From contig JADGAR010000035.1 in assembly GCA_015231915.1 (NCBI GenBank), positions 1 to 38,367 of the forward strand: 38,367 nucleotides of DNA, in the 5' to 3' direction. The notes below the pieces were generated by a model. It saw nothing but the letters and a program-made list of their open reading frames with translations, was not told the DNA's origin and searched no databases. Positions 1,344-24,054 of this stretch are shown here, in pieces. This DNA comes from Magnetococcales bacterium. Lineage in GTDB: Bacteria > Pseudomonadota > Magnetococcia > Magnetococcales > Magnetaquicoccaceae. The position numbers and the translations under genes were made by a program. How positions within the stretch are numbered: position 1 is the stretch's first letter; each line of letters begins with the position of its first letter.

Positions 1344-2657
1344 CTAACCGTTTTTTTTGCCATTTTCCGCACCACCCGTTCCCAATCGCCGCGTCTCCTC
1401 CAAAGCAATGGCGCGCAATACCACCTCGGCGGCGCTTTCATCGGCGAGGATCCGTTCCAGCCACTCCCTGGCAGCGGGGAGATCCCCCTTCGCCAGCCGC
1501 TCCTGCGCGATGAAAAACCACGCCTCCGCCAGGGCGGATCGTCTGACCTCCCCCTCCGGCAAACGATTGGCAGCGGCCACCACCCCCTCCGGGGTCACCT
1601 GACCACGGAACAGCCCATACAAAGGACCCGGCCACTCCCGATCCACCGACCCACGCAGCTCAGGAGCCGCCTCCATGCCGCCGCCCCGCCGCCGCGCGAC
1701 ATGTCGCCACAACGGCGCATAAGGATCCTCCGGACGCAACGCCTCGGCTTGCCGAAACACCCCCTCCGCCAACCCGTACTCCCCCTCCAGAAAATGCAGC
1801 AATCCCAGATTGGCCAAAAACGACGGATCCCCCGGACGCAAGGCGACTGCGCGGGCAAAATCCTCACGCGCTTCCCGGAATTGCGACCGCGACGCCCGCA
1901 GGGAACCCCGCTGCAGATAGGCGACGGCATCCTCCGGATCCATGCCGATGGCGCGGTCCAACTCTTCCAAAGCCTCGGTGATTCTGTTGAGCGCGATCAA
2001 CGCCTCGCCCCGCAGGCGGGTGGCCTCGCCATCCCACGGATGGGTGGTCTTGAGCCGCGTCAGATCCTCCATGGCCTTCTGGGTCTTGCCCTGGGCCAGC
2101 AACAGGGCGGCCCGCTCCAGGCGCGCATCGCGCAGGTCCGGTTGCCCCTGCAGCAGTTGATCGTACAACGCCAGCGCCTCGCCCACCCGATCCAGACGCC
2201 GCAGGATCCGTGCGCGGTCCAGGCGCAACCGGTCATCCTCCGGGCCGAGCCGCATGGCAACGCCATTGTCCTCGTCCGCCTGTTCCCACTCCCCCCGAAT
2301 GGCGCGTATCCGGCTGCGCGCGGCATACCAGATCGCCTGGTTCGATTGCAACGTCACCGCCCGGTCACAATCCCGCAAGGCCAGCTCCAGCAGAGGCGCC
2401 GACTGCCGGCGCGCGCTGGCGGCCAGACGCAGTTGACAGCGTCCCCCCAACGCCGCAGCCTGCATCCGGCGCGGCAGATGTGCCGCCGAACGCAAGGCGC
2501 GTGAAAAGAGGCGCAACGCCTCGTCCTCCCGGCCCCGCATCAACGCTTCGTTGCCCTTTTCCACGTGGGTCACCGCCGGATGCTCTGCCCAGACCCATCC
2601 CACCGGCCAACACAACCAAACCAAAAACCACCACCGCGCAGCCCGACCCTCAAACAC
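1344..2657 (-). CDS. Exported tetratricopeptide-repeat protein
   Basis: 437 residues. The N-terminus WWFLVWLCWPVGWVWA is a signal peptide or anchor, followed by tandem TPR units over most of the protein (for example DAVAYLQRGSLRASRSQFRE and DPSFLANLGLLHFLEGEYG). The start is a GTG with GGAGG 6 nt upstream. It overlaps the preceding 2-TM gene by 8 nt, so the two are translationally coupled. TPR proteins act as periplasmic scaffolds, and this one may organise the adjacent heptahaem cytochrome and membrane proteins. That role is inferred only from position. Confidence 0.85.
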   Translation of the reverse strand: MFEGRAARWWFLVWLCWPVGWVWAEHPAVTHVEKGNEALMRGREDEALRLFSRALRSAAHLPRRMQAAALGGRCQLRLAASARRQSAPLLELALRDCDRAVTLQSNQAIWYAARSRIRAIRGEWEQADEDNGVAMRLGPEDDRLRLDRARILRRLDRVGEALALYDQLLQGQPDLRDARLERAALLLAQGKTQKAMEDLTRLKTTHPWDGEATRLRGEALIALNRITEALEELDRAIGMDPEDAVAYLQRGSLRASRSQFREAREDFARAVALRPGDPSFLANLGLLHFLEGEYGLAEGVFRQAEALRPEDPYAPLWRHVARRRGGGMEAAPELRGSVDREWPGPLYGLFRGQVTPEGVVAAANRLPEGEVRRSALAEAWFFIAQERLAKGDLPAAREWLERILADESAAEVVLRAIALEETRRLGTGGAENGKKNG

Positions 2658-3210
2658 ACCGATCCTCCAATTCCCCGCCAGAGCGCGGCAACAGGGCGAT
2701 CATCTCGTGCAGACGCCCGGCCAACGCCTCTTCGGACAACTCCTCCACGCCGGAGAGCAATCGACGGATCGCCAACAAACGCTCCCGCTCCTCATGCCGG
2801 CAGGCCAGCAGCTGGTCCAGGGCGCCATGCACCCCCGGGGTATCCGGCACCACACGCAAATCCAGATCCGCCACCTGATTGGTCAATACCGTAAACCGCC
2901 CCAACACCAGCCGCGCATACTTCACCCAGATGCGATCCGCTGCCAGCAAGCCCATCAGGTTGACCGCCAGCATCACCACCAGCACCGGCAACGCCTCCTC
3001 CCAGATCAACAGAAAGATCTCCCTGTGCGCCACATGAATCCGATACAGTTGACTCTCGATCACCCCACCCAGCCGGATGTGCAGATAGGTCAAGCCGCCG
3101 CCGATCAACAGGATCTCCAGCACGATCAAGGTCACCAGCATGCCCATCTGCAACCGGTAATCCAATCGCCGTGCCGCCTGATCTCTTCCTGCCCCGTCAG
3201 CCATGATCAT
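2650..3210 (-). CDS. Two-TM membrane protein with HAMP-like cytoplasmic tail
   Basis: 186 residues. TM1 covers about residues 22-46 (MLVTLIVLEILLIGGGLTYL); a ~27-residue loop holds the sequence RIHVAHREIFLLIWEEA; TM2 covers about residues 75-93. The C-terminal ~90 residues are charged and helical (VHGALDQLLACRHEERERL). The layout resembles the input half of a chemoreceptor or sensor protein without an output domain. The start ATG at 3210 has AGGAGG 6 nt upstream. It lies 14 nt downstream of the heptahaem cytochrome gene. The other 2-TM protein, upstream of that cytochrome, has the same layout, so the two may be distant paralogues. Function unknown. Confidence 0.75.
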   Translation of the reverse strand: MIMADGAGRDQAARRLDYRLQMGMLVTLIVLEILLIGGGLTYLHIRLGGVIESQLYRIHVAHREIFLLIWEEALPVLVVMLAVNLMGLLAADRIWVKYARLVLGRFTVLTNQVADLDLRVVPDTPGVHGALDQLLACRHEERERLLAIRRLLSGVEELSEEALAGRLHEMIALLPRSGGELEDRCV

Positions 3211-3224: not shown

Positions 3225-4034
3225 TTACAAATCATGACATGCATAACACAATCCGGACTGTTTGTTGTCCACGGTCAGCGCCCCATGCTGCTTGCCGTAA
3301 CCGAGATGACAGGAAACGCAACCCACCTTGCCGTCCGGCAGCACAATGGCGGCGGGCAGGCTGCCCGCGGGACGGTAACCGCCGACCTTGATGCTGCTGG
3401 TGTAGGAACGACCAATGGGGTGCGTCATGGTGCTGCCCCGGTGCAGCATGATCCCGCCCGGATCCATGTTCACCAGTTGCGGGGCGGTGCCGGTTTTTTC
3501 TTCATGACAGCTCATGCATTGCAAGGAAAAACCGTCCAGCTCCACCCGCCGGGGATCCGTCGCCGTGGCCTTCAGATGACCCGATTCCACCACCGATGCG
3601 CCCCGATCCGCCATGCGCTCGAAAAAAGCCTGGTCGTGACATTCCAGGCAGAACGGCGCACCTCGCTTGGGGGAGCGCAACAACCCCGACCCGCTGCCAT
3701 GCACCACATGACAGGAACCGCATGTCAGTTCCCCCTTCCAGTCCACCGGGAATTGCGCCGGCAGGATCCGGTTCGGGACGAATCCGGAGGGGTGGCTGAC
3801 AACATTGGTTTTGGAATGGCAGGGGGCGCACATTTTGTCTTGACTGTAAACCAGCATGCGCGCCTGTTCCGGCGTGACCTGATCGGAGAGGTGACAATCC
3901 TGACACCGGCTGTCGGCCAGGTGACCCGCCACGCCGGAGACGTTGCGCACGCCCGGCAGCAGCAGCGGCAGCAGGATCGCCAGCGGGATCAGCAGCCGCC
4001 AGCGGCCATTTTTCCACCATTCAGAATTGCACAT
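3225..4034 (-). CDS. Membrane-anchored heptahaem c-type cytochrome
   Basis: 269 residues. A short basic N-terminus is followed by a hydrophobic segment (LLIPLAILLPLLLPGV), either an anchor or a signal peptide. Seven CXXCH motifs follow: CQDCH, CAPCH, CGSCH, CLECH, CMSCH, CVSCH and CYACH. Many other histidines are available as distal ligands. The protein ends six residues after its last motif starts (CYACHDL). The ATG at 4034 overlaps the end of the upstream 2-TM gene by 14 nt; the longer open frame upstream is out of phase with that gene and has no cytochrome character. Likely a periplasmic electron carrier tied to the inner membrane. The exact family is not recognised. Confidence 0.9.
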   Translation of the reverse strand: MCNSEWWKNGRWRLLIPLAILLPLLLPGVRNVSGVAGHLADSRCQDCHLSDQVTPEQARMLVYSQDKMCAPCHSKTNVVSHPSGFVPNRILPAQFPVDWKGELTCGSCHVVHGSGSGLLRSPKRGAPFCLECHDQAFFERMADRGASVVESGHLKATATDPRRVELDGFSLQCMSCHEEKTGTAPQLVNMDPGGIMLHRGSTMTHPIGRSYTSSIKVGGYRPAGSLPAAIVLPDGKVGCVSCHLGYGKQHGALTVDNKQSGLCYACHDL

Positions 4035-4590
4035 GGCGGTCAAGCTCGCGCAGTCTGTGCAGTGCGTTTTGCAGTTCCCTGCGTGCCTCGGGATCGGTGC
4101 GTCCGAGTTGATCCAGGGCCTGACGGGAGGAGGCGCGCAGGGCTTCGTAATGGTCACGCAGTCTGGTGGTGGCCACGGCGTACTGGACATTTTCCAGGGG
4201 CACGGGTTCGCCTTCCAAACCCAGAACCAGGGTGGGGAGGCCATGCCGGACCTGACGCCCGAGATGCAGATCGATCCAGAACATGGGACCACGCACCCGC
4301 CAGATGCTGTAGGAGGCGATCAGCCAGGTGATCAGACCGGTCAGGGCGATCAGCGAAAGCCCCAGCAGCAACAGAACGGGCAGCAGATGCCGGCGGGTCA
4401 TCAGATAGCCGCTCAGGATTTCCTGGTAGGTCATGCCCTCTTCTCCGGCCCAGTGGCCCAGGAGGAGATACAGAACCAGTGCCGCCGCCACGCCGATCAG
4501 CAGTGCGATCCGGGCGACCAGAAGCAGCTTCGTTGCCATGGGGGGTTTGGCATTGCGAATGCTGGTCGTATCGGTTTCGTCCTGTCTCAT
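4021..4590 (-). CDS. Two-TM membrane protein upstream of heptahaem cytochrome
   Basis: 189 residues. TM1 lies near residues 20-45 (LLLVARIALLIGVAAALVLY), a short loop contains TYQEILSGYLMTRRH, and TM2 lies near residues 70-92 (LPVLLLLGLSLIALTGLITW). About 90 residues of charged helix follow (RDHYEALRASSRQALDQLGR). There is no haem motif or enzymatic signature. The start at 4590 is preceded by a G-rich segment (ggggggaacc) that resembles the ribosome site of the dihaem gene at 9586. It is the first gene of the 4590-to-800 minus-strand cluster. It may anchor or sense the state of the cytochrome it overlaps; this is inference. Confidence 0.75.
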   Translation of the reverse strand: MRQDETDTTSIRNAKPPMATKLLLVARIALLIGVAAALVLYLLLGHWAGEEGMTYQEILSGYLMTRRHLLPVLLLLGLSLIALTGLITWLIASYSIWRVRGPMFWIDLHLGRQVRHGLPTLVLGLEGEPVPLENVQYAVATTRLRDHYEALRASSRQALDQLGRTDPEARRELQNALHRLRELDRHVQF

Positions 4591-4760
4591 CTGGTTCCCC
4601 CCCCTTGCCGCGTCCCATCTTTATCGTCAAACGGCCATGATTCTATCATCGGCGAAATGAAATTGCTTCATATTTTTTTTCTCACCTTCACCATTGACAG
4701 GTGATGCGGGAATCCGGCATTAAAGAATCCATCATCGCCCCCCATTTTCAGGAGACCCGC

Positions 4761-6266
4761 ATGAAAGGGATTCGATCCTGCCTGGCGTGCCTCGTGCTGT
4801 TGAGCACCCCCTGTACGGTGTTTGCCGAGGATCTGCCCGCCGATACCTATTTTTCCCTGGCTGTCACGGAAAACTCTCACAATCACTACGGCGAGAATCT
4901 GTTGTTTCTGCACTTCCGGGAAGCGACCAGTGCCGTGCCTCCCGCCAATTCACGGGTCGTGGTCGCCACGCGGGTGCAAGACGATGCCATGACCATCGAC
5001 GGGGAGTTCAGGGAGTGGGATCCGCAGCGCTTCGTCACGGTGCAGGGGCGGGTGATGAACAACTACCCCTTGAGCGAGTATTTCGATGCCCGACCGGGCG
5101 CCATCCGGGTGGCAGCGGCCTTCGATTCCCGGCACCTCTATTTTGCGGTGGATTTCGAGGATGCCAATCACGACGCCTCCACGCGGCGCAAGGAGTGGGT
5201 TTATTCCCAGGGCCGCTGGCGCATCGCGCCCCATGTCCGGCCTGACGATAAGCTGCCCCGTCCGGTCAACGCCGCCGAGGAGCCGGAAGGCGCGGAAAGC
5301 GAGGACCGGGTGCTTTTCATGTTTCCCATCGTGGACCGCCAGGACCTCTTTCGGGATGGCGGCCTGGGTTGTGCCGGGTACTGTCACCCCAACCTGAAGG
5401 AGGGCAGGGACCCGAAAACCACCCCGGTCGGCAAGGGGAGCGCGGAGATGCATACCGCCCTGCCCGGCGACACCGCCGATGTCTGGCACTGGAAGGCCAC
5501 CCGCACCAATCCGGCCCGCAGCGCCGACGATGGCCACATCGACTTCGCCGCAGGGGCCGTGGAGGGGTTCAAGGCGGATCCCGGCCAGGCGGCATTCGAA
5601 GACAACGACACCAAGGCCCTGGGCATGGCCGATACCAGCCAGCCGGCCTTCGTCAACCGGGAGGATTTCCAGGCCGGACGTTTCTCCACACCCGGTTTCG
5701 CATCCTCACCCGTCACCGAGGAGAACAGGCTTGCCATCACCCCTGACATGACCTTTGCCGAGGGGACCACCCTGCCGTATGCCATGCATCGTCAGGCCAC
5801 GGCAGGCCGGGGCGATGTCGCCGCCTTTGGCCGCTTCGACCCCAAGACCTCCCGCTGGACCATCGAGTTCAAGCGCAAACTGGTGACCGGCGACCCCTTC
5901 GATCACGCCTTCGCCCCCGGTCCCGGCGCCACGCCCCCGGTGACGCGGCCAGCCGTGCCCGGCAATGCCATGACGGGAGAAAAGCTTTTCAAGGAGAGGG
6001 CCTGCAGCGCCTGTCACGGCGATGAGGGCGAAGGCAGGTTCGACAAGGGTCGTTGGCTTTTCCCGCGCATCCAGCGTGCAAGCGGTGCCCTGATCGCCAA
6101 GACCGCCGCCCTGACCCGTCCGGAGCGGGAGCGTGCCCTCTCCTTTCTTGTGACCGAAGCGGGCAGGCCGGTGGAAAATGTCATGTCCCATGTGCCCCTG
6201 ACCCCGCAGGAGGCGGAGGATATCGCGGCCTGGCTGCAGACCCGTTTCCTTGCGCGGGGGCAGTAG
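4761..6266 (+). CDS. Ethylbenzene-dehydrogenase-like haem protein fused to cytochrome c
   Basis: 501 residues from the ATG at 4761, which has AGGAG about 6 nt upstream; earlier in-frame ATGs lack such a site. A signal peptide (CLACLVLLSTPCTVFA) is followed by a region resembling EB_dh haem-binding proteins, the gamma-subunit-like family of DMSO-reductase-type enzymes (IDGEFREWDPQRF; IRVAAAFDSRHLYFAVDF). A CAGYCH motif (CXXXCH) sits near residue 204, an unusual spacing also seen in some EB_dh relatives. The C-terminal ~90 residues form a class I cytochrome c domain with CSACH near residue 415 and a possible Met ligand in NVMSHVP. No molybdopterin subunit is present nearby, so this is probably a stand-alone periplasmic electron-transfer protein. 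It converges with the oxidase-like gene, 3 nt apart. Confidence 0.8.
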   Translation: MKGIRSCLACLVLLSTPCTVFAEDLPADTYFSLAVTENSHNHYGENLLFLHFREATSAVPPANSRVVVATRVQDDAMTIDGEFREWDPQRFVTVQGRVMNNYPLSEYFDARPGAIRVAAAFDSRHLYFAVDFEDANHDASTRRKEWVYSQGRWRIAPHVRPDDKLPRPVNAAEEPEGAESEDRVLFMFPIVDRQDLFRDGGLGCAGYCHPNLKEGRDPKTTPVGKGSAEMHTALPGDTADVWHWKATRTNPARSADDGHIDFAAGAVEGFKADPGQAAFEDNDTKALGMADTSQPAFVNREDFQAGRFSTPGFASSPVTEENRLAITPDMTFAEGTTLPYAMHRQATAGRGDVAAFGRFDPKTSRWTIEFKRKLVTGDPFDHAFAPGPGATPPVTRPAVPGNAMTGEKLFKERACSACHGDEGEGRFDKGRWLFPRIQRASGALIAKTAALTRPERERALSFLVTEAGRPVENVMSHVPLTPQEAEDIAAWLQTRFLARGQ

Positions 6267-6269: not shown

Positions 6270-8051
6270 TCAAGGCGCCTGGCCCCACTCCCAGAGGGCC
6301 GCGCGCGCCTTGCGGACGAACGGGGTCTCCTCTTTGCTCAGATGGACGAACGTCCGCATGGCGCCGATGGCCCCGGGTCGGTCCTTGAGTTCTTCCAGGC
6401 TCAACGCCAGGCCGTAATAGGCATTGACCTGTTCGGGACGCAGGGTGATGGCGGTCTGGAAGAAATCCCTGGCCACCTCTGGTCGTTCCAGGCCGAGCAT
6501 GGCGAATCCCATGTTGACATGCGCTTCCGGCAGTTCCGGGGCGTGTTGCAGGACCCAGTGGAAGGCGGTGAGGGCATGCTCGTATTGTTTGGCATGCAGC
6601 ATCATGGCCCCCTGTTCGAAGCGGGTAGCCACTTCGGGAGCGATCCGCAGCGTGGTCGTATCGTTGTGGGGCCAGAAGCGGATCATGCCGCCCAGTGCCC
6701 CGATGGAGAGGACGGCCAGCAGTACCGCGCTGCCCCGGCGCAGGCGTCCGCCCAGCAGGGCGCGCAGGGCCGGCACCAGGAACAGAAAGGTGGCGGTCAG
6801 GGCGATGGCGGCGCCGGCTCCCATCAGGGCCATGCCTTCCGGGGCGTGGCTTGCGAGGGGGGTTTTGCGTGGTGCGTTGTTCGCCCCTGACCAGGCCAGG
6901 CCCAGGATCACCAGGCTCAAGCCGAGGGGATAGACGCGGGCCTGCAGGCGGGCGAGCGCGGGCCGCACCGGGGTGCGGCCCAGGTCGGGCAGCAGTGTCA
7001 GGGTCATCCCCATGTAGGCCAGGGTGATCGCCCCCACGGTGCCGTGGTAATGGGCGGTCACCAGCACGCTGTCGTTGTGGATGGCCGTGCCGGTGGCGAT
7101 TCCCAGGCCGAGCAGCAGCATCGAACCCCACAGGGCATTGTCTGCATTGGCCGCGAGGGGGGCCGTGCGGCGTCGATATCCCCAGGCGATCCCGCCGGCG
7201 ATCCAAGGCACGGCCCACCAGTTGCCCCAGACCATCAAACTGGTGAAAAAAAGGCGTTGCTCCGGGGAATCCGGCGCGAGGGAGAGACCCGGCCAGGCGC
7301 CCAGCAGGGCCGGGAGAGCGCCGAGCCACAGGATGCGTCCCTGCCCGGTCGCCCCGAACGGCATGGGGATGCCTGCCCGCCGCGCCAGGGCCAGCCAGAC
7401 GGTCAGCATCGTCAGGATGTGGGTGAACTGCAACAGGTGGCCGCCTGCCCAGAACAGCGGATTGAAATAGGCCTTGCCCTGCAATTCGTCAGGCAGGCGG
7501 GCGAATGCCGTCCCGCAGGCGAGGAGGGCCAGCAGATGGCAGAGCGCGGCGGCGCGCAGGCCGCTGCCGGGCACGCCGCCCAGGACCATGCCCCCGCGCG
7601 GGATCACCAGCAGGGCGCGGGTCGCCGCCAGGGCGAAACCGATGCCCAGGGTCACCACCCCCCCCAGAAAGACCGGGTTGCGCAGCACCGGGAGGTAGTC
7701 GGAGAGCACCGGTTGTCCGGAGGCCAGCCAGGGTGCCGCCAGCAACAGCAGGCCGCCTGTCAGGCTGAGCACGAAGGCCGTCCGGTCCAGGCCGGCCATG
7801 CGTGTCCCTCCTGCCAGGCTCCACAGGGCGCTGGTGAAGGCCAGGAACCACACCGTGACCGAAAGATCGACATGCAGCACCAGTGCGGTATTGAAGATCC
7901 ACTCGCGTCCGGCGAAGCGTTCCGACAATCCTGGCATGCGTGCCGCTGCCAGCAGCAGGGCGCACAGACTCGAAAGGGCCAGAGAGGAGATGCCGAGCAG
8001 CAGCCAGGCGAGAGGTCCGCGTCCCACTTGCGGGTGAATCGGCTCTTCCAT
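6270..8051 (-). CDS. Divergent haem-copper-oxidase subunit I homologue with C-terminal TPR domain
   Basis: 593 residues. About 12 hydrophobic helices are followed by a soluble tail. Features matching haem-copper oxidase subunit I are His60 in helix II (ALVLHVDLSVTVWF), GGH at 203-205 in helix VI, and the helix X block HNDSVLVTAHYH at 325-336, which parallels HDTYYVVAHFH of classical oxidases (haem ligands His334 and His336). Where the helix VII HH pair that binds CuB is expected, the sequence reads EQRLFFTS (264-271), so CuB looks incomplete. Residues ~470-593 contain about three TPR units. The ATG at 8051 lies 5 nt after the CcsA gene; the frame continues upstream to 9086, but that part is only a shadow of CcsA and the dihaem gene. 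Catalytic oxygen reduction is doubtful. It may be a haem-b electron-transfer or sensory membrane protein. Confidence 0.8.
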   Translation of the reverse strand: MEEPIHPQVGRGPLAWLLLGISSLALSSLCALLLAAARMPGLSERFAGREWIFNTALVLHVDLSVTVWFLAFTSALWSLAGGTRMAGLDRTAFVLSLTGGLLLLAAPWLASGQPVLSDYLPVLRNPVFLGGVVTLGIGFALAATRALLVIPRGGMVLGGVPGSGLRAAALCHLLALLACGTAFARLPDELQGKAYFNPLFWAGGHLLQFTHILTMLTVWLALARRAGIPMPFGATGQGRILWLGALPALLGAWPGLSLAPDSPEQRLFFTSLMVWGNWWAVPWIAGGIAWGYRRRTAPLAANADNALWGSMLLLGLGIATGTAIHNDSVLVTAHYHGTVGAITLAYMGMTLTLLPDLGRTPVRPALARLQARVYPLGLSLVILGLAWSGANNAPRKTPLASHAPEGMALMGAGAAIALTATFLFLVPALRALLGGRLRRGSAVLLAVLSIGALGGMIRFWPHNDTTTLRIAPEVATRFEQGAMMLHAKQYEHALTAFHWVLQHAPELPEAHVNMGFAMLGLERPEVARDFFQTAITLRPEQVNAYYGLALSLEELKDRPGAIGAMRTFVHLSKEETPFVRKARAALWEWGQAP

Positions 8052-8056: not shown

Positions 8057-8869
8057 TCAGAAAACGCCTCGATGCATGGTGCGCGAAAGAAACGGCACCC
8101 CGAAGAAGTTGACGAAAGCCACGCCAAATACCAATATCCCAATCACCGCGCCAACGCGAGGGGAAATGTGCAGGGTGGGCCGCAGATGCAAGGCGAGGGC
8201 AATCAACAGCCAGTTGATCAGCGACCACACTTCCAGGGTGTCCCAGCTCCAGTAGCTGCCCCAGGCGTCCTGCGCCCAGATTGCGCCGGCCAGGATCATC
8301 AGCGTGTCGAAAACGAACGCCACGGCCATGAACCGATAGGCCAGTCCGTCCAGGGCGTCGTCGCAGGGGAGGGCGGCAAAAGGGGCACTCCCCGCCATCA
8401 TCCGGGCCAGAACGACCACCCCCAGAGCCGCTGCCACCAGCGCCGCACCCAGGAACACCTTGCCAAAACCGATATGCACATACAACCAGATGGTGTGGTA
8501 GGTGGCGGGATACTCCGAATGGAACGGATCCACCACCAGCAGCCAGCCCCCCATGATGAACAACAGGGGCAACACCACCATGGCCAGGGGTCTCAGCCGG
8601 GGGAGACGCCAATAAACCACCGCGTACACCAGGGTCAGACTCCAGAGGTTGCTGGAAAGAATCTCGAACTGATTGACGAACGGGCCATGGCCGAGCCGTT
8701 CCCAACGCATGCCCAGGGCCGCCCCATGCAGGAGCAGCCCGGCGACCAGCATTGCCAATACCCCCATCCCCGGCCCGCGGCGTCCCACAAGGCCCATGAT
8801 CAGCGCGAAAGACCCTGCCATGACATAGGCCGTCAGTCCCAGCCACATGCAGAGGATTTCGACTTCCAT
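8057..8869 (-). CDS. ccsA: CcsA/ResC-family cytochrome c maturation protein
   Basis: 270 residues with about eight TM helices. The WWD signature of haem-handling proteins is present as WGSYWSWDTLEVW at residues 203-215, flanked by His132 (YVHIGF) and His228 (ALHLR), the usual external haem ligands. The motif NQFEILSSNLW near residue 66 also matches CcsA. This protein presents haem to apocytochromes on the outer face of the inner membrane together with ResB/Ccs1. It lies 9 nt downstream of the dihaem cytochrome gene and 5 nt upstream of the oxidase-like gene. The matching ResB-like gene lies about 2.5 kb away, beyond the diguanylate cyclase. Confidence 0.9.
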   Translation of the reverse strand: MEVEILCMWLGLTAYVMAGSFALIMGLVGRRGPGMGVLAMLVAGLLLHGAALGMRWERLGHGPFVNQFEILSSNLWSLTLVYAVVYWRLPRLRPLAMVVLPLLFIMGGWLLVVDPFHSEYPATYHTIWLYVHIGFGKVFLGAALVAAALGVVVLARMMAGSAPFAALPCDDALDGLAYRFMAVAFVFDTLMILAGAIWAQDAWGSYWSWDTLEVWSLINWLLIALALHLRPTLHISPRVGAVIGILVFGVAFVNFFGVPFLSRTMHRGVF

Positions 8870-8878: not shown

Positions 8879-9586
8879 TCAATGCACCGGCAGTGTCTGT
8901 TCGTAGGCGAGAATGTCTGCCGCCACCTCCGGGGGCAGCATGCGCAGGCTGATCATCTCCTGGCCCGGCTGGCCGTTGCGGATTTTGTGCAACACCTCGA
9001 AGGGGTTTTCGTTCGCCTCGGTGCCGAGGTATTCCGGCTCCTTGTCCGAACCGAAATTGAGCTTGCGTCCGTCCAGGCCGTGACAAGCCGCGCAGATGGT
9101 TTGGAAATAGGGCGCCCCCCTGGCGGCATCGCCCCTGGAGCGTCCCGATGTCGCATCGATGTATTTTTCCGGTTCGATCAGCCCCTTGGCAAGAAACAAC
9201 GCCACATCGCTGGCCGCATCGTCAGGCAGGAGTTCCGGTGTGTAGCGATGGACCGGATCACGCAGAATCGCGGTCACTTGCTGGGGATCTTTGCCCATCC
9301 AGGTGCGCAAATCCCTGGCGACCGTTCCCTTCGTGCCCTTGTAGTCCCAGCCGTGGCAGGCAACGCAGCGCCATGTGGCGGATCCCTTCGTTTCCCCGCC
9401 GGACGGATAGGAGGCATGGGTCTCCTTGGGGGGGGTTTTCATTTTCAGTGTGGTCATCCAGTTGTCGTAGATGCGGCCCCCCCGTGAGATCCGATAGACT
9501 TCGGTCAGGTCCCCCGCGAGCGTCGTCAGGGGGGTGATTGCCATTCCGAACAGGCAGCATGACAAAAAAAGGTATTTTGTTTGCAT
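8879..9586 (-). CDS. Exported dihaem cytochrome c
   Basis: 235 residues from the ATG at 9586. I preferred this start to 9601 because GGGGGAA lies just upstream and the signal peptide is then compact (MQTKYLFLSCCLFGMAITPL). The mature N-terminus carries SRGGRIYDNW and the haem motif is WRCVACHGWDYKG (~74-78). This resembles a class of cytochromes whose SGGxLYDxW-type start precedes a GWDYKG haem block (family memory). The second haem motif, CAACH near 165-169, is in a class I cytochrome domain. It is the first cytochrome of the minus-strand group with CcsA and the oxidase-like protein, and is a likely electron donor or partner for that membrane protein. Confidence 0.88.
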   Translation of the reverse strand: MQTKYLFLSCCLFGMAITPLTTLAGDLTEVYRISRGGRIYDNWMTTLKMKTPPKETHASYPSGGETKGSATWRCVACHGWDYKGTKGTVARDLRTWMGKDPQQVTAILRDPVHRYTPELLPDDAASDVALFLAKGLIEPEKYIDATSGRSRGDAARGAPYFQTICAACHGLDGRKLNFGSDKEPEYLGTEANENPFEVLHKIRNGQPGQEMISLRMLPPEVAADILAYEQTLPVH

Positions 9587-9631
9587 AATTGGTTCCCCCA
9601 TATTTTTTGATTGACATTCAGGCGCGCCTGC

Positions 9632-11323
9632 TCAAACCAGATTTGCCATCACCACCCGGTTGCGTCCGGCCCGTTTGGCCTGATAGAGCGCATTGTCCGC
9701 CACCTTGACCAGATCGAAGGGGGCCTTGATCTCCGGCATGGGATGAACCGCCACGCCAATGCTGATGGTGACCTTGAGGCCGTCGATGGCTTGCGCCTCG
9801 ACCCTCTGGCGGAAACGCTCGGCCACCCCCCACGCCCCGTGTCCGTCCATGTTGGCGGGGGTGCTGGGGAGGATGACGCAGAACTCCTCGCCACCGTAAC
9901 GGCAGGGAAAATCGATCTTGCGGAAGTGCTCCTTCATCAGGCGGCCAATGGCCTGCAAAACCCGATCCCCCTGATCGTGTCCGTGTTCGTCATTGAAACG
10001 CTTGAAGTGATCCACATCGAACAGCAGAAAGGAGAGCGGATAGTGGTAACGCGCCGCGCGGTCGAATTCGGCGGTGAGCAACTCCTCCATGCGCCGGCGG
10101 TTGAAGATGCCGGTCAGCTTGTCGGTGTAGGAGATGAGGCGCAACTCCTCTTCCAGCCGTTTTGCCTCGGTGATGTCCCGGATGAGGGCGGCGGAACCGA
10201 TCACCGTGCCATCCGGGGCGAGGATGCGTGCGGCGTGGACCGACAACACCTGTTCCTTGTAGACGAGTTCGTCCGGGTAGGCGCGGCCTTTGTTGTCGAT
10301 GTAGCTGGCCAGATAGTCGGGATCGTCGAGCAGGTGCATGAATCCCTGCTTAACAATCTGCTCGGCGCTTTTGCCGAGGAGACGTTCCGCCGAGGGATTG
10401 ACCAGCACCACCGTGCCGTCACGATCCGTGACCACGATCCCCTCGCGGGCGCTGAGGATGATGGTGTTCAGCTTGTCGCGTTCCTGCTGGAAGCCGGTAT
10501 AGGTCTGCAACAGTTGGGCCAGCATGTGGTTGAAGCTGGCCGCCATGCGGCTCAGTTCGTCGTGTCCCGGTTCCGGGACCCGGATGGTGAGATCCCCGGC
10601 GGCCACTCGGGTCATGGCCGCGGTCACCTGGCCCAGCGGTGCGACCACCAGGCGGCGCACCAGCAGGAAAACCAGGACGAGTTTCAACAGGATGACCACA
10701 ATCAGAATGCGAAACGCCCGTTCCCGCGACTCCCGGATCGCGGCCAGCACGGGTTCCATGGTGGTGGTCACCTTGACCACCCCCCGCAGGGCTTCGTCCT
10801 CGTCATGACAGCGATGGCATCGTTCTTCGTTGGGGATCGGGGTCAGAAAGGTGAGGTAGCGGGTATTCTCCTCGACCTCCTCGAACGAGGTCATCTCCTT
10901 GCTGGCCAGGGCGCGCAACAGGGCCGGATGGTCGGCGGGGAGGATACGGATGGTCAGTTCTTCGCTTCTGGGTTTGAAGGATGGCTTGCCGCGGTAGGTG
11001 TTGACCGCCTCGATGGTCTTGTTGTCCTGGAAGGCCTCCAGGCCGTTTGCGCGCAGGATGCGGAAGTCGTGAATGCCTGGGACTTTTTTCAGCTCTTCGG
11101 CGAACTGCTGTGTAATGATCGCCGAGCCGGTGAGCATCACCGCGTCCAACCCATGGATCACGCTGCGCGTCATCTCCAATCGGGCCAGTTCGTTTTGTCG
11201 CAGCAGGGAGGTTTCCTCGTGATGGGAGTAAAACAGGATCATGCCAATCAAAATAATGGTGGAGGGAATGGCCACGCCAATCATGATTTTACTGCCGATT
11301 GAGTGCCGCAATTGATTAAACAT
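9632..11323 (-). CDS. Diguanylate cyclase with periplasmic haem-c sensor, HAMP and PAS
   Basis: 563 residues. TM1 is at about 12-30. A periplasmic domain spans ~31-202 and ends with the covalent haem motif CHRCH at 169-173 (NEERCHRCHDEDEALRG). TM2 is at about 203-225, followed by HAMP (~226-280), PAS (~285-395) and GGDEF. The active site is intact (GGEEF), and the RxxD inhibitory site is present five residues before it (RKID then FPCRY). It should therefore make c-di-GMP from two GTP with product inhibition. The arrangement fits a Tll0287-like haem sensor of redox state or gas. A PilZ protein encoded at 33 kb could be one receptor. A promoter candidate lies 40-75 nt upstream. Confidence 0.92.
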   Translation of the reverse strand: MFNQLRHSIGSKIMIGVAIPSTIILIGMILFYSHHEETSLLRQNELARLEMTRSVIHGLDAVMLTGSAIITQQFAEELKKVPGIHDFRILRANGLEAFQDNKTIEAVNTYRGKPSFKPRSEELTIRILPADHPALLRALASKEMTSFEEVEENTRYLTFLTPIPNEERCHRCHDEDEALRGVVKVTTTMEPVLAAIRESRERAFRILIVVILLKLVLVFLLVRRLVVAPLGQVTAAMTRVAAGDLTIRVPEPGHDELSRMAASFNHMLAQLLQTYTGFQQERDKLNTIILSAREGIVVTDRDGTVVLVNPSAERLLGKSAEQIVKQGFMHLLDDPDYLASYIDNKGRAYPDELVYKEQVLSVHAARILAPDGTVIGSAALIRDITEAKRLEEELRLISYTDKLTGIFNRRRMEELLTAEFDRAARYHYPLSFLLFDVDHFKRFNDEHGHDQGDRVLQAIGRLMKEHFRKIDFPCRYGGEEFCVILPSTPANMDGHGAWGVAERFRQRVEAQAIDGLKVTISIGVAVHPMPEIKAPFDLVKVADNALYQAKRAGRNRVVMANLV

Positions 11324-11432: not shown

Positions 11433-12383
11433 TCAGGACGGAAATTTGCGCCAATAATGCCAGGCGAGGCTGCCGCTCGCCACCAGAAAGGCGGCCAGCA
11501 GCCAGTAACGGGCCCAGTCATAGGCCACCCGATAGCCCATCCAGAAGCTCATGGCCACATAGCGCAGCTCGCCACCCCCGGGAAAAGGGAACCGGTCGCC
11601 TGGGACCAAATCCCGGGTTTCGCCCTGTGCGGTGACCCGCAGGCGATGACGCGGCAGCGCAGGAAAAACCCCGCCCAACGCCGGGTGGATGACCGCTTCC
11701 TCCAACAAAAGCATGGCCAACACCGCCGTGTCGGTACCAGGAATGGTCCAGGAATGGCTTTGCTCGCGATAGAGGGGGTAGGATGGAAAATGCACGGCGC
11801 CCCGGATGGGGGTTGCCTGCGGGTCGGCTGACCATTCGAAAACCGGGGCGAATCCGTGGTTGGAGGTGGGGTCGATGCGGTAGCCGTGGAGCAGCAGCGA
11901 CTCGCCCGCGCCCAACTCGCTGCGGCGCCAGACGCCCTCCTCGTCGCGCCAGCGCAAGGTGGTGCGTTTTTTTTTCACCCGCCAGTCCGGGCCGTACTCC
12001 CTGGCGAATCCCTCGTTGACGAACACCAGCCGCTGCAGGTCACCCCAGTGCAACCAACCCTGTTCGATCCCGCTCAACTCGCCAGCGAAAGCCTCGCCGA
12101 TGGGCAGTTCCACCCACCCCTGCTGGTAGGTCAGACGACCCAGGCCCAGCAGCAGGGCCGCCATCAACAGCGCGACATGAAAGACCAGCAAGGCGGGCTG
12201 GGCGCGAAACGAGGCATTGGCGAGAATGGCCGCCAGCAGATTGACCCCCAGCAGAGCGACAGGGGGACCCAGGAGCGCGGCGGGCGATGCCATCTCCCGC
12301 GCCGCGCCCACTGCCGCCAAACCCAGCAACGCGATCAGCCACGGCGTCCACAGCAGGGAACCCGGCGCAGGAAGAGGTTTCAA
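11433..12383 (-). CDS. ResB/Ccs1-like cytochrome c maturation protein
   Basis: 316 residues. Three N-terminal hydrophobic segments (TPWLIALLGLAAVG; PPVALLGVNLLAAILA; LLVFHVALLMAALLLGLG) precede a long periplasmic region containing LRWRDEEGVWRR and SWTIPGTDTAVLAMLL. A final TM lies near residue 295 (YWLLAAFLVASGSLAW). The FHVALL histidine in TM3 and the final TM match the ResB/Ccs1 plan, though the protein is shorter than typical ResB. It should work with CcsA in System II haem attachment. The start is a TTG with AGG about 9 nt upstream. The gene follows the 11-haem cytochrome by 9 nt and is the last gene of the main operon. Confidence 0.8.
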   Translation of the reverse strand: MKPLPAPGSLLWTPWLIALLGLAAVGAAREMASPAALLGPPVALLGVNLLAAILANASFRAQPALLVFHVALLMAALLLGLGRLTYQQGWVELPIGEAFAGELSGIEQGWLHWGDLQRLVFVNEGFAREYGPDWRVKKKRTTLRWRDEEGVWRRSELGAGESLLLHGYRIDPTSNHGFAPVFEWSADPQATPIRGAVHFPSYPLYREQSHSWTIPGTDTAVLAMLLLEEAVIHPALGGVFPALPRHRLRVTAQGETRDLVPGDRFPFPGGGELRYVAMSFWMGYRVAYDWARYWLLAAFLVASGSLAWHYWRKFPS

Positions 12384-12392: not shown

Positions 12393-14867
12393 CTATGGTG
12401 AAGGACTGGTACACTTTTCGCTGCCATCCCGCATCCAGGTTCTCCCGGTCTCACCATTGCCCGGTGCGCCCTTGGAGCCGCAACTGGACGCGGTCCAGCT
12501 GCCGCTCTTCTGCCAGGTCTTGACCTTCAGGACCGCGCCCAGGTAATAGGGAGCCTGGCTGTAGGTGGCTGTGGTGCCATTGCGCACCTGCGTGCCGCTG
12601 GTCTTGCCCGCCTCAGGTCCGACATCGTTCAGATTGACGAGAAAGGCCTTGTTCTTCCAGCCGTGCGGTATGGCGATGTGGCACCAGCGACATTTCAAGC
12701 TGCCGATCTTGTCCGCGTGATAGCCATGCAGGTTGGTGTCCTTTTCACAGCAGAAACCGCTTTGCGTGCTGTTTCTGGTGGCGTAGTTGTTGTAGTTGTG
12801 GCAGCGGAAACAGATGCCGCTGGACTGCCCCGACCCGGTCGAAAGATCCCAGGTCCCCTTGAGAATGAAATCGTTCGTCGAGCCATGGGGTCCCCAGGGT
12901 TTGCCGGCATTGGGGATGGAGGTGCCGTCCGCAGTGGCCGAGCCGTGGCAGTCGGTGCAGAACATGGTCAGGTTGCCGATGAAGCCGCCGGTGGAGCCGT
13001 TCCACGGGGAGAGCCAGAGATTGGCCATGCCGCCGCGCTCCGACAGGGTGCGGCCCGTGGGCCAGATCACCGGGTGGAAGGAACGACGGTTGGCGCTGGC
13101 ATTGCTCGACTCCTTCTGGTCCGTGCCGGTCAGGGAGTCGTTGGCGTTGGCGCCGAACTCCATGGCCTGGTTGGTGTACTGGGTCAGGCCGTTGGTATTG
13201 GTGGCCGTTCCGCCGGTGAAGCTGCCCAGATTGGGCCGGTTGCCGGTGGGATAGGTGTTGTTGTCGTCGTAGCCGTAATCCGAGTGGCACTTGAGGCAGA
13301 TCTGGTATTCGCGGGTGACGTGACTGGCGGAGCGCAGCGTAGAGGCCCCGGCCCCGCCGTCCCCCTTCTTGACGGTGTAGCTCGTCGGCAGCGTGGGGAA
13401 GGTGGTGGTTCCGTAGGTCGGCTCCACCCCCCAGGTCCCGCGCAATGCCCCTGAGGCCAGATTCGAGTGCTGGACCGTGGCATCGTGGGTATGCGTCGGT
13501 GCGGTCGTTGCCCCGGAACCGTTGAAAAGACGGTTCTTGATCGCCCGGTGCGGGTTGTGGCAGTCGGTGCATTCCACGTGGCGATTCAACAGGTCCCCCT
13601 TGCCCAGGGAGAGTTGCGTTTCCTGAAAATCGGCGTTGATGATGTCGTGTTTCTCGGTGGTGCCGTGGGCGGCCTGATCCGCGCTGGTGATCGGCATGCG
13701 GCGGTTGCCCACGTCGGTGAAATCGCTTTTGATGTTCGGCGGCGAGCTGGTCAGGACGCTTTGCGTGGAGGTGATGTGACACTGGTAGCAGGTCTCCTCG
13801 ATGGCAGGATTGCCTCCCTGCTTGACCGGGGTGGCGGTGCTGTCGGTCCCCTCGCGCAGCAGGCGTCGGGAGCCGGCCACGGTGTGGGAGTCGTGACAGT
13901 TGAGGCAGGCCATCTCCCACACCTTGGCATTGGTCGGGAACTCCCGCGCCTCCGCCGGGGAGCCGACGCCGGATTTGTAGATCAGGCTGGCGCTGGTGGT
14001 ATTGGCATGCACCGATTCGGCCCAGGCGTTCTTGCCCTTGTCGTGACAGGCCAGGCAGATGATGTCGGCGCTCTGGCTGAAGGTGCTGCCCACCGGGGCC
14101 ACCTTCTGAAACCGGTTCAGACGCAAAAACTTGATGCTGTCGGCCTCGGCGGGATCGCGGATGTGGGGGTCATGACAGGAGGCGCATTGCACCTGGTTGT
14201 TGTCCAGCGGCACAAGGGGTCGCGGCGTGACCCCCTGGGCGGCGTTGCCCATGATCAGCGTGGTCCCGGAGGTGTAGGGGGGAGTGCGCAGTTCGCCGTC
14301 CTTGGTGGCCACAGTGGCGTTGAAGGTGAAGGAGATCGGATGGTCGTTGGAGAGATCCACCCCCAGATTGCGGGTGAATCCGGTGGTGGCACCGCTGCCG
14401 GAAGGCATCACCCCGCCGGTGCCGGCACCGGACATGCTGATGGTCGGGGGGACCTTGCCCCCCAGGACGTTCACCGAACCGATGGCCACGGTGCCGTCAT
14501 GACAGGAGAGGCACAACTTGGAGGTCCCCCCCGGTCCCGCGCGCAGTTCGTTGACATCCGCGTCGATGGAGGAGGATTCGTAGGTCTTGGTGTAGGTCGC
14601 CGTGGAGAGGGTGCGGTTCCACAGCGGGGTGGGCACCCCGGCGGCCTGGGTGGCGGCGTGCGGGGTGTGGCAGAAGACGCAGATCTGGGTTTCGGAGACC
14701 GCCTTGACCGTGCGTTGCGGTCCGCCGGAATAGTCGGTGGCCGAAAGATTGTGTTTGGTGCGCCGTACATCGGAGATGCGCGCGCCAAAACCCTCCTGCC
14801 AGGGCCAGAACAGCACCCCGGTCAGCAGACAGGGTACGATCATCCACCACGCCAGTTTACGCATCAT
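12393..14867 (-). CDS. Large exported 11-haem cytochrome, doubled-CXXCH type
   Basis: 824 residues from the ATG at 14867, which overlaps the NHL gene by 4 nt (ATGA) and has GGAGG upstream. A signal peptide (WWMIVPCLLTGVLFWPW) is followed by eleven CXXCH motifs: CVFCH, CLSCH, CASCH, CLACH, CLNCH, CYQCH, CTDCH, CLKCH, CTDCH, CFRCH and CRWCH. The first four, with their context (TKHNLS, PLWNRTL, LSNDHPISF, CASCHDPH), align with the tetrahaem protein encoded at 23141-23947. The protein is therefore a tetrahaem-like module plus a seven-haem extension. Long Ser/Thr/Asn/Gly-rich stretches suggest surface exposure. A haem-free tail of ~75 residues carries two Cys. Probably an outer-surface terminal reductase or conduit component. 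Confidence 0.92.
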   Translation of the reverse strand: MMRKLAWWMIVPCLLTGVLFWPWQEGFGARISDVRRTKHNLSATDYSGGPQRTVKAVSETQICVFCHTPHAATQAAGVPTPLWNRTLSTATYTKTYESSSIDADVNELRAGPGGTSKLCLSCHDGTVAIGSVNVLGGKVPPTISMSGAGTGGVMPSGSGATTGFTRNLGVDLSNDHPISFTFNATVATKDGELRTPPYTSGTTLIMGNAAQGVTPRPLVPLDNNQVQCASCHDPHIRDPAEADSIKFLRLNRFQKVAPVGSTFSQSADIICLACHDKGKNAWAESVHANTTSASLIYKSGVGSPAEAREFPTNAKVWEMACLNCHDSHTVAGSRRLLREGTDSTATPVKQGGNPAIEETCYQCHITSTQSVLTSSPPNIKSDFTDVGNRRMPITSADQAAHGTTEKHDIINADFQETQLSLGKGDLLNRHVECTDCHNPHRAIKNRLFNGSGATTAPTHTHDATVQHSNLASGALRGTWGVEPTYGTTTFPTLPTSYTVKKGDGGAGASTLRSASHVTREYQICLKCHSDYGYDDNNTYPTGNRPNLGSFTGGTATNTNGLTQYTNQAMEFGANANDSLTGTDQKESSNASANRRSFHPVIWPTGRTLSERGGMANLWLSPWNGSTGGFIGNLTMFCTDCHGSATADGTSIPNAGKPWGPHGSTNDFILKGTWDLSTGSGQSSGICFRCHNYNNYATRNSTQSGFCCEKDTNLHGYHADKIGSLKCRWCHIAIPHGWKNKAFLVNLNDVGPEAGKTSGTQVRNGTTATYSQAPYYLGAVLKVKTWQKSGSWTASSCGSKGAPGNGETGRTWMRDGSEKCTSPSP

Positions 14868-15991
14868 CCCGCCCCTCCGTGCTCGCGCAGGATCATCACC
14901 CTGCCATTGAACATGTCGGCGATGTAGACCCGGTTGCCAGCGTCGGTCCATATGCCGCTCGGCAGATAGAAACGCCCGATATCCTTGCCGGTCCCGCCGA
15001 TGGGGAGCAGGAACTGGCCATTCTCGTCGTAGATCAGCAGATGATCGTGTTCCCCCTCAATGACATAAATACGACCCCGGCTGTCCACGGCCACCCCCTT
15101 GGGGCGCACCATCTGTCCGATCACTAGGCCCCGCTGGCCGAAGGTGAGCAGAAACTCCCCGCCGGGATCGAAGATCTGAATCCGGGCGTTCAGGGTATCG
15201 GAGACATACAGCCGGTCCCTGGCGAAGGCCAGATGGGTCGGGGCATGAAACTCTCCCGGCATCTGGCCGGGACTCCCGAACCGCTTGATCAACTGGCCCG
15301 CATCGTCGAAGACCTTGATGTCGTGGGCGCGGGAATCAGCCACGTAGACCCGTCCGCGCGTCGCGTCCCGCGCCAGGCCGGTGGGCCGCACCAGTTCCCC
15401 CTTGCCGAAGGTGCCGACCGGCACCCCTTCCGGCGAAAGGCGGACCACCATGCCCAGGTCGGCATCGGCCACCAGGATCTCCCCCTTGGCCCCCTGGGCG
15501 ATCCCCACCGGCGCGGCGAAGCCGCTCTCTGCGGTGGCCTGTTTCCAGATGCGCAGCCGTCCTGCCGGGCGGTCGAAGACCACCACCCCCTGCTGGCCCG
15601 CGTCGGTGACGAGGATCCGGCCCGCCGTGTCCACCATGCCGGCATGGGGGCGTTGCAGTCCCTGGTCCGAATCCCGGTTGACCGGTTCGGCATCGGGATC
15701 CATGCCCACCAGCCACATGAGCGCCTTTTGCGACTTCTCCCGATCCCGCAGCGTCTGTTTGCCGGCATCGGTGAGGACGAAGTTCTCCTTCCCCAACAGC
15801 TGCCCCGCGTACTGGTAGCGGGGGGGATCCGGCGGCGAGGGCCAGACCGGCAGGTGCAAGCCGGGTTCCTCCACCCCCAGGCGCAGCTCACGGGGCAGAT
15901 CCGCCTCGAAGCACCCCCCCAGCGCGAGGGTGAGCGCCATCCCTGCCACAACTCGGCCCCAGGCGACCGGATTGGTGAAAAAACCATTCAC
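14864..15991 (-). CDS. NHL-repeat beta-propeller lipoprotein
   Basis: 375 residues. A GTG start at 15991 has AGGA 8 nt upstream and gives a short signal peptide ending in the lipobox LALGGC, so the protein should be lipidated. After a Pro-rich lead (WPSPPDPPRYQYAGQLLG), repeated NHL blades fill the chain (GILVADADLGM-type, RVYVADSRAHDIKVFDDAG, RLYVSDTLNARIQIFDPGG). NHL propellers bind proteins, and such proteins recur in extracellular-cytochrome gene clusters of metal-reducing bacteria (established association). The lead segment is shared with the NHL lipoprotein at 24183-25352, so the two are paralogues. It lies between the second trihaem pair and the 11-haem cytochrome. Confidence 0.88.
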   Translation of the reverse strand: MNGFFTNPVAWGRVVAGMALTLALGGCFEADLPRELRLGVEEPGLHLPVWPSPPDPPRYQYAGQLLGKENFVLTDAGKQTLRDREKSQKALMWLVGMDPDAEPVNRDSDQGLQRPHAGMVDTAGRILVTDAGQQGVVVFDRPAGRLRIWKQATAESGFAAPVGIAQGAKGEILVADADLGMVVRLSPEGVPVGTFGKGELVRPTGLARDATRGRVYVADSRAHDIKVFDDAGQLIKRFGSPGQMPGEFHAPTHLAFARDRLYVSDTLNARIQIFDPGGEFLLTFGQRGLVIGQMVRPKGVAVDSRGRIYVIEGEHDHLLIYDENGQFLLPIGGTGKDIGRFYLPSGIWTDAGNRVYIADMFNGRVMILREHGGAG

Positions 15992-16025
15992 GCGCGGCTT
16001 CCTCGCGGTTGGAGGATGAGGCGAC

Positions 16026-16418
16026 TCAGTACTCCCCTGGACCGGTGGATTTGCTGCCTCCGCGAATGCCGGTCTGCAGGCCGGGCAGACCGGAGTGGCA
16101 GCGGTCGCAGAACTCCGTGCCCCAGGCGATATCTCCATTGTGACACATTCCGCAGAACTTGCCATCCAGAATTTTGTTCATGTCGATCTGGTTCGACCCC
16201 ACCTTCATCTCGAAACCCAGTTCGTTGTGGCACACCTTGCAGCGGAACCGGATGCGATGAAACCAGTGGGGGTAGATCACCGGTCGCACCCCCTGCGCCT
16301 CGGCCTGGCTGTTGAGCACCACGTCGGCATACTCGGCCAGGGCCGCGTCCATGCCCAGGCACAAAGCCAGCGCAAGGGCCATCGTCAGCCGCCAGAATCC
16401 TCGTCCGATTGGTTTCAT
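16026..16418 (-). CDS. Periplasmic trihaem cytochrome c7-type, form B2
   Basis: 130 residues with a signal peptide (MALALALCLGMDAALA). Three haem motifs are present: CKVCH (60-64), CGMCH (89-93) and CDRCH (104-108), in the frame PHWFHRIRFRCKVCH...ILDGKFCGMCHNGDIAWG. This is the c7-like trihaem pattern described for the nanowire_3heme domain (recognised from memory). The start has GGGAGG 6 nt upstream and overlaps the preceding gene by 4 nt. It is a close paralogue of the protein encoded at 19515-19949. Likely a soluble periplasmic shuttle between inner-membrane donors and the outer-membrane complex. Confidence 0.92.
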   Translation of the reverse strand: MKPIGRGFWRLTMALALALCLGMDAALAEYADVVLNSQAEAQGVRPVIYPHWFHRIRFRCKVCHNELGFEMKVGSNQIDMNKILDGKFCGMCHNGDIAWGTEFCDRCHSGLPGLQTGIRGGSKSTGPGEY

Positions 16419-16987
16419 GGTTTGCCTCCCGCCGCCTGTTGCGCCCCGAGCTTGCCCTTGAACGTGCCCGGGTCGATGCTGTGGCAGCGCCGGCATTCGG
16501 TCAGGGGAAAGGAGACCGCCCCGTGACACTGGCCGCAGGCCTTGCCCGCGAGGATGTCCATCATCTTGAAACCCGTGGCGCCGAACTTGGTCTTGAAGAT
16601 CCGTTCGTGGCAGTTGGCGCAGTCCAGCCATTCGGTGTGTGCCTTGTGGGGGAACAGCACGAACCAGTTGTCTCCGGTGTTGCCGTAGATCAGATCCTGG
16701 TCCAGCACCTGGATCTTGGTTTCCGGCAGGATATTGGTGCGTGGGTTGATCGTCCCCTTGCGCAGGGCCTCCACCCAGCGCACCTGATTGCCCACCGAAT
16801 CCGGCGGCATCTGGGAGAGGGCCTCTCCCGGCTGCTGCAATTCGTGAATCGCCGGTCCCTGGGGATCGTGCAATCCGTCCTTTTCCAGCGGAGACCATTT
16901 TTCCGGCCCCGCCACTGCGGGGACCGGGGCGGTGCTCCACAGCAGCACCGTCCAGGTCACCGCCAGAAATTTCAGGAGTGCGTTCAT
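16415..16987 (-). CDS. Periplasmic trihaem cytochrome c7-type, form A2
   Basis: 190 residues with a signal peptide ending APVPAVAG. An N-terminal ~90-residue haem-free region contains WVEALRKGTINPRTNI. It is followed by a c7-like domain with CANCH, CGQCH and CRRCH (FPHKAHTEWLDCANCH). It is a paralogue of the protein encoded at 18833-19501, which has the same haem-free N-terminal block (WVQALNKQLIKPRYD). It overlaps both neighbours by 4 nt, indicating coupled translation. Probably a periplasmic electron carrier. What separates the roles of forms A and B is unknown. Confidence 0.9.
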   Translation of the reverse strand: MNALLKFLAVTWTVLLWSTAPVPAVAGPEKWSPLEKDGLHDPQGPAIHELQQPGEALSQMPPDSVGNQVRWVEALRKGTINPRTNILPETKIQVLDQDLIYGNTGDNWFVLFPHKAHTEWLDCANCHERIFKTKFGATGFKMMDILAGKACGQCHGAVSFPLTECRRCHSIDPGTFKGKLGAQQAAGGKP

Positions 16988-17895: not shown

Positions 17896-17932
17896 CAAAA
17901 ACGCTCTCCTTGAGTTCTTTAGTAGAAAAACA

Positions 17933-18796: not shown

Positions 18797-18832
18797 CTCC
18801 GTTTCCCTCCCTCGCCTCAGGGCCGACATCCA

Positions 18833-19501: not shown

Positions 19502-19514
19502 GGCTGGATCCTCC

Positions 19515-23041: not shown

Positions 23042-23064
23042 TGGTGGCTCCTGTAGCAAACGGT

Positions 23065-23099
23065 CATGGCCAAACGGAATCCATTCACGTTTGGCCATG
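23065..23099 (-). promoter_or_regulatory. Perfect 12-bp hairpin between tetrahaem and isomerase genes
   Basis: The arms 23065-23076 (catggccaaacg) and 23088-23099 (cgtttggccatg) pair fully around an 11-nt loop. The hairpin lies in the 99-nt gap downstream of the tetrahaem gene. No T tract follows on the minus strand, so it is more likely an RNA-processing or stabilising element, or a partial attenuator, than a strong terminator. A smaller 5-bp hairpin (23111-23115 with 23123-23127) lies next to it. Confidence 0.55.
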
Positions 23100-24028: not shown

Positions 24029-24054
24029 CCTTGAAACGCATACATTTTTTCGAT

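Follow-up and report, generated by a model that had tools for sequence, protein, structure and literature searches.

The window analyzed here, a stretch of 38,367 nucleotides of the Magnetococcales contig JADGAR010000035.1 from a magnetotactic-type bacterium, raises the question of what a homologue of the haem-copper oxidases (HCOs) does when it is encoded directly behind a cytochrome c synthase gene, and whether such a protein can be an oxidase at all. The gene and its C-terminal part are the following:

6270-8051, minus strand: HCO-like gene, encoding a CuB-less B-family HCO homologue of 593 amino acids with 12 HCO helices, a 13th transmembrane helix (residues 439-459) and a TPR domain (residues about 472-590)
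6270-6690, minus strand: TPR tail, with free-standing homologues close to CcsA where a Uet locus has no HCO-like gene

The open reading frame begins with an ATG at position 8051, and its start lies 5 nt past the CcsA stop codon.

Fold and active-site residues of the HCO-like protein

In Pfam, the window protein has a sub-threshold COX1 match (E 6e-4) around the H-Y-H motif of helix X. The relationship becomes evident when a family profile, built from 23 relatives, is run against the PDB: the B-family ba3 oxidase of Thermus is matched over its full length (E about 1e-17), 7deg is another B-family match (E 4e-8), and no sequence matches are found outside the B-family. The AlphaFold2 model, calculated with 31 family sequences as input, is confident (pLDDT 89.4, pTM 0.81) and has the 12-helix subunit I fold of the HCO superfamily. 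Its closest folds are solved HCO subunits I (Foldseek E about 1e-8; VIA Z about 31, a structural score that cannot tell the A, B and C families apart), with an rmsd of about 3.2 over about 410 superposed residues. Alignment to the oxidase families and structure prediction had been suggested as checks in an earlier, sequence-only reading of this gene, and both bear out its assignment to the superfamily. The window protein has an HCO-superfamily subunit I fold with B-family affinity, and its family is a new subfamily within this known superfamily. A chance open reading frame, a frameshift artefact and a pseudogene were considered and ruled out, as 51 relatives share both the invariant residues and the loss. 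No account of CuB-less HCOs of this kind was found in the literature searched, which mostly excludes subscription papers, and this counts as weak evidence.

The haem ligands H60, H334 and H336 and the helix VI histidine H205 (of a GGH motif), located exactly where they had been read from the sequence, are invariant in all 51 aligned members, as are Q208, W201, Y119, P121, R395 and K396, and M273 is kept in 50 of the 51. The histidine of helix II and the H-x-H motif of helix X, aligned with ba3 and with neighbouring B-family enzymes, are thereby present throughout the family. These residues predict a low-spin haem site at H60/H336 and a second haem site with H334 as the proximal ligand. The helix VII HH pair, on the other hand, is absent from all 51 aligned members, 11 of which have a single histidine at one of the two columns. 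The sequence-only reading had recognized this loss, and that part stands; its register, in which the pair was replaced by the RL of EQRLFFTS, is not retained, as the alignment with neighbouring genuine B-family oxidases places P254-G255 (in GAWPGLS) at the HH columns, about 11 residues ahead of EQRL.

Oxygen reductases have three CuB histidines, of which one (H205) is kept and two are absent in every member. The cross-linked active-site tyrosine sits in helix VI in the A and B families; at this position, four residues after the helix VI histidine (H+4), the window protein has Phe209, as had been noticed before, and phenylalanine occurs in 46 of the 51 members. The FeB ligands of cNOR and qNOR are three histidines and a helix VI glutamate at H+4, and neither the HH pair nor this glutamate is found in the same alignment. 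Since two CuB histidines and the cross-linked tyrosine are gone, the window protein is not expected to be a conventional O2 reductase. This agrees with the earlier prediction, made from the sequence, of a membrane haem protein of the superfamily in which the haem ligands are kept.

In the ba3 oxidase of Thermus thermophilus (1ehk), the low-spin haem ligands are H72/H386, the high-spin ligand is H384 and the helix VI residues are His233 and Tyr237. Its 12-helix fold, haem ligands, helix VI histidine and propionate-proximal arginine pair are all matched in the window protein, whereas its helix VII HH pair is not, and Phe209 stands in the place of Tyr237. Unlike the ba3 system, the Uet loci have no subunit II gene, and the window protein adds a transmembrane helix and a TPR tail.

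The fusion to TPR repeats, as originally proposed, is confirmed by a Pfam TPR_2 match (E 4.5e-8, residues about 474-570); only generic TPR models match, and the TPR_CcmH_CycH model does not. In oxidase subunits I, the C-terminus is cytoplasmic after twelve helices. Because in the window protein a 13th transmembrane helix, preceded by RR, follows the twelve-helix fold with its cytoplasmic end, the predicted topology should place the TPR tail in the periplasm. The free-standing homologous TPR proteins start with a membrane anchor or a signal-like helix, in agreement with a periplasmic TPR.

The Uet locus and the gene order around CcsA

The genes upstream of the HCO-like gene, all on the minus strand, are the following:

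8057-8869, minus strand: CcsA/ResC-like subunit of a cytochrome c synthase, in whose sequence the WWD motif reads WGSYWSWDTLE
8879-9601, minus strand: dihaem c-type cytochrome (2 CXXCH), between ResB and CcsA in the window genome
9632-11323, minus strand: membrane-bound sensor diguanylate cyclase with HAMP, PAS and GGDEF domains; its periplasmic sensor has a single CXXCH
11433-12383, minus strand: ResB (Ccs1)-like subunit, identified through homologues
12393-14951, minus strand: undecahaem cytochrome, UetJ-like (11 CXXCH)
14864-16165, minus strand: NHL beta-propeller, UetH/I-like
16026-16987, minus strand: two trihaem c7 cytochromes, UetD/E/G-like (open reading frames 16026-17033 and 16415-16987)
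16984-17898, minus strand: YfdX-like protein
17933-18829, minus strand: protein in the UetF position
18833-19949, minus strand: two more trihaem c7 cytochromes (open reading frames 18833-19501 and 19515-19949)
19915-22047, minus strand: 710-residue protein in the UetC (porin) position, assigned by position only, no Pfam match
21944-23140, minus strand: peptidyl-prolyl isomerase, UetB-like
23141-23947, minus strand: tetrahaem cytochrome, UetA-like (4 CXXCH)
24183-25373, minus strand: second NHL beta-propeller

The region 12393-25373 thus holds, in one locus, the UetA tetrahaem (4 CXXCH) and UetJ undecahaem (11 CXXCH) cytochromes, the UetB peptidyl-prolyl isomerase, four trihaem c7 cytochromes and two NHL genes. 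By this gene content, compared with the description in PMC10734462 and not with the Tenderia sequences as reference, the cluster matches Uet (undecahaem electron transfer), a porin-cytochrome system described previously. PCC3 had been considered as the host cluster and was replaced by Uet on the basis of the same description. The tetrahaem cytochrome, the isomerase, the trihaem c7 cytochromes, the NHL propellers and the 11-haem cytochrome are shared with the Uet of Ca. Tenderia and Gallionella, whereas neither the ResB-CcsA-TPR genes nor an HCO-like gene are mentioned in the consulted passages of these descriptions (PMC10734462, PMC5371394). The portions of the Uet literature covered contain no description of how the multihaem conduits of these bacteria are matured.

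Next to the Uet genes lies a System II synthase, comprising a CcsA with the WWD motif and a ResB partner recognized through its homologues. CcsA matches Cytochrom_C_asm (E 2e-23) and the CcsB model (E 1e-37, below the NCBI cut-off), and PF05140 is matched above cut-off by betaproteobacterial homologues of ResB, the window copy being without a Pfam match. The diguanylate cyclase gene (9632-11323) is inserted between ResB and CcsA, and its product may couple c-di-GMP to electron transfer. The YfdX-like periplasmic protein (37-62% identity) occurs in nearly all Uet loci examined, with a PF10938 match just under cut-off. On the other side of the HCO-like gene, a fusion of an ethylbenzene-dehydrogenase-type haem domain with a cytochrome c (4701-6266, plus strand) is convergent with it; a seven-CXXCH cytochrome with one transmembrane helix is encoded at 3225-4292 on the minus strand, and behind it come small unassigned membrane proteins (2650-3210, 4021-4590) as well as a TPR protein (1344-2657).

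With a diguanylate cyclase in the cluster, and with gas binding conceivable for a haem protein lacking CuB, the HCO-like protein might be taken for a haem-based sensor of gas or redox state. Such a function is very improbable: the protein has no output domain, its TPR is predicted to be periplasmic, and the diguanylate cyclase carries a haem c-type sensor of its own, and most relatives do not conserve it at that position. The sensing branch suggested by the sequence-only reading finds no support here, also because no signalling domain is attached and because elsewhere a separate TPR gene lies near the synthase.

Relatives from Magnetococcales, Betaproteobacteria and Gammaproteobacteria share the order UetJ-ResB-CcsA-[HCO-like]-TPR, in which the HCO-like gene is either fused to the TPR gene (in Magnetococcales and some Betaproteobacteria) or its neighbour. 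One homologue (L014) comes from a strain in culture, Noviherbaspirillum denitrificans TSA40. UetJ is found in 23 of 398 sampled genomes, and this type of CcsA in 22, every one of them a UetJ genome; being confined to UetJ genomes in this sample, the window-type CcsA is a Uet-dedicated synthase. Within Magnetococcales, UetJ occurs in 20 genomes; 18 of them have the sequence downstream of CcsA assembled, and the HCO-like gene directly follows CcsA in 17 of these 18. In one genome (G181), the HCO-TPR fusion lies away from the Uet locus, moved as one unit (L075, 9289-11091); there it adjoins a diguanylate-cyclase-like/sensor open reading frame. In another (G149), the fusion is found at a contig end. 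An apparent absence of the HCO-like gene from the Uet locus of G097 was dropped, the contig ending 28 bases past CcsA.

The HCO-like protein is absent genome-wide from four beta- and gammaproteobacterial genomes with Uet-ResB-CcsA-TPR, and the HCO-like gene is absent from three Uet genomes outside Magnetococcales, according to the match list for the covered part of the sample. In the latter three the TPR gene is kept: one has it immediately behind CcsA, and the other two have it on the strand opposite CcsA, about 0.5 and 1.6 kb away. In the loci without the HCO-like gene (L019, L020, L026-L028, L112-L114), the TPR gene is directly after CcsA or within a few kb of it. The TPR thus persists near CcsA when the HCO-like gene is missing, which assigns it to the maturation module; the HCO-like protein is an optional, though frequent, extra of the ResB-CcsA-TPR module. 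Because of these four and three Uet genomes, it cannot be essential for maturation. In some betaproteobacterial loci (L017, L025, L027), the TPR gene is followed by CcmF, redoxin, CcmH and CcmI genes, a second maturation set of System I type. In a Saccharospirillaceae locus (L091, 1-3155), an HCO-like gene occurs with a separate TPR gene and an NHL protein, with neither ResB/CcsA nor UetJ nearby; an NnrS-like open reading frame was read from the sequence at 10013-11197 of the same locus.

The sister branch and CtaA

In the tree, the TPR/Uet-linked members, including the window protein, form one supported group (96/92). Three proteins in it are not so labelled, one of which (L029) has a TPR gene next door. 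The members of the sister branch are without TPR, and their genes keep other company. In Zetaproteobacteria-type genomes the sister-branch open reading frame overlaps that of CtaA, and in several Magnetococcales the gene is the divergent neighbour of CtaA, within 400 bp. In a sample of 48 Magnetococcales genomes, with the branch assigned by hand from match lists, it is present in 34 of 36 genomes with CtaA and in 1 of 12 without (Fisher p 4e-8, kinship ignored). In Betaproteobacteria it accompanies a B-family oxidase-like operon with CtaB, SCO and cytochrome b/Fe-S genes. The CtaA link may reflect heme A oxidase operons going with CtaA and not haem handling as such. The dedicated ResB-CcsA-TPR context and this sister branch tied to CtaA are additions to what the sequence-only reading contained.

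A B-family oxidase-like subunit I that keeps the HH pair, with GHSSQQ in helix VI in place of the tyrosine motif, is encoded at L083:14633-16348 (minus strand) and L087:736-2445 (plus strand), and the same subunit I family is also seen in L102, L103 and L110. Its operon encodes COX2, CtaB, SCO and a cytochrome b fused to Fe-S/FlpD domains, and it is possibly an NO reductase-type family. These genuine B-family oxidases beside the sister branch, with a glutamine at H+3 and no tyrosine, resemble the window protein in its distal pocket, where the invariant H205 and Q208 and nearly invariant M273 point to selection. It could be imagined that the second haem with H205 and Q208, perhaps with a non-copper metal, reduces O2, NO or another small molecule. 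An active non-canonical enzyme of this type is nevertheless improbable, given that two of the three CuB/FeB histidines are missing from all members, that the NOR glutamate is absent, with Phe at H+4 in 46 of 51, and that the Uet loci lack a subunit II gene.

The window genome itself has CtaA (L101, G000:C45:20001-40000, at 9586-10578), and cbb3 and two CuB-less proteins are the sole oxidase-type proteins in the assembly. No CtaB and no A- or B-family oxidases are found in its draft assembly, in which a gap is possible. Haem A was therefore rejected as the default cofactor in this genome, CtaB and a B-family oxidase not being found in the assembly, and for the same reason haem B is more likely than haem A in the window protein.

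A proposed partner of cytochrome c maturation

It is possible, and this is the reading tentatively preferred here, that the dihaem CuB-less HCO now serves a dedicated System II maturation module for the Uet cytochromes, having been recruited as its partner in redox or haem handling. Counted in its favour are the 5-nt spacing to CcsA, the Uet-dedicated CcsA, the link of the TPR with CcsA and the link of the sister branch with CtaA; the fold, the family, the residue losses, the synteny, the Uet-specificity of CcsA and the clade support are computed. Haem must be Fe(II) for its attachment to CXXCH. System II (CcsBA/ResBC) is described as transporting haem that is already reduced, and is not known to require an additional haem reductase; this counts against a role in maturation.

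Two precedents are relevant. The b-haem of CcmF, the System I synthase, has been proposed as a haem reductase, whose own reductant is stated to be unknown (PMC10663686), and the TPR proteins NrfG/CcmI bind an apo-cytochrome (NrfA) for the synthase (PMC12285233). In view of these precedents, and because both branches adjoin membrane haem machines, a dihaem redox or haem partner of ResB-CcsA that carries its own TPR chaperone is proposed. The likeness to CcmF concerns the proposed role, a transmembrane b-haem giving electrons for haem ligation, whereas the folds are unrelated and the HCO-like protein has no WWD domain and lies beside a System II synthase. Likewise, a periplasmic TPR adjoins a cytochrome c synthase in NrfG/CcmI and in the window, but the window TPR matches neither model and is fused to an HCO fold.

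From these data we infer the haem content, the electron source, the contact with CcsA, the client cytochromes and the maturation role. The HCO-like gene would have been inserted between CcsA and TPR of the Uet-dedicated ResB-CcsA-TPR module, and then fused with TPR in Magnetococcales and some Betaproteobacteria. A quinol or another membrane donor would reduce the two b-type haems of the protein, where H205 may make the second haem six-coordinate or hold a non-copper ligand. Electrons (or haem) would go from there to the periplasmic CcsA/ResB active site, and the fused periplasmic TPR would bind the apo-cytochrome, as NrfG/CcmI do. The HCO-like protein would be a modular counterpart of the CcmF b-haem. 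It is rather unlikely, although conceivable, that this extends to both branches, with a widespread CuB-less HCO subfamily redeployed as redox/haem-transfer partner of the System II synthase of Uet (TPR-linked) and of CtaA.

The position of the gene in an extracellular electron transfer locus also fits an inner-membrane conduit, in which electrons would pass between the quinone pool (or an oxidase) and the periplasmic trihaem and undecahaem cytochromes of Uet by way of the dihaem protein, with the TPR as docking platform; the Uet wire would then end at this protein in the inner membrane. This possibility, doubtful but to be taken seriously, keeps the electron-transfer branch of the sequence-only reading as one of two leading readings, although not the preferred one. 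The two haem sites are kept, with R395/K396 in the propionate region and W201, the sister branch adjoins real oxidases and cytochrome b/Fe-S proteins, and a dihaem b inner-membrane protein has been proposed as the quinone partner in PCC3 and PCC4 (PMC5566968). However, complete Uet loci exist without the HCO-like gene, so that it is not an obligatory membrane end, and the gene is placed with CcsA and TPR and not with the cytochrome genes, the TPR having its own link with CcsA.

For the family as a whole, the retention of both haem sites with the CuB site removed by evolution provides a natural comparison for the contribution of CuB in oxidases. Automatic annotation as an oxidase subunit would inflate the inference of oxygen respiration, which is corrected here. 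The HCO-like protein most likely handles electrons or haem instead of reducing O2, in a cluster that makes cytochromes, and loads them with haem, for electron traffic across the cell boundary in either direction, and, if this is true, an oxidase fold has been turned from O2 reduction to cytochrome assembly or extracellular electron transfer.
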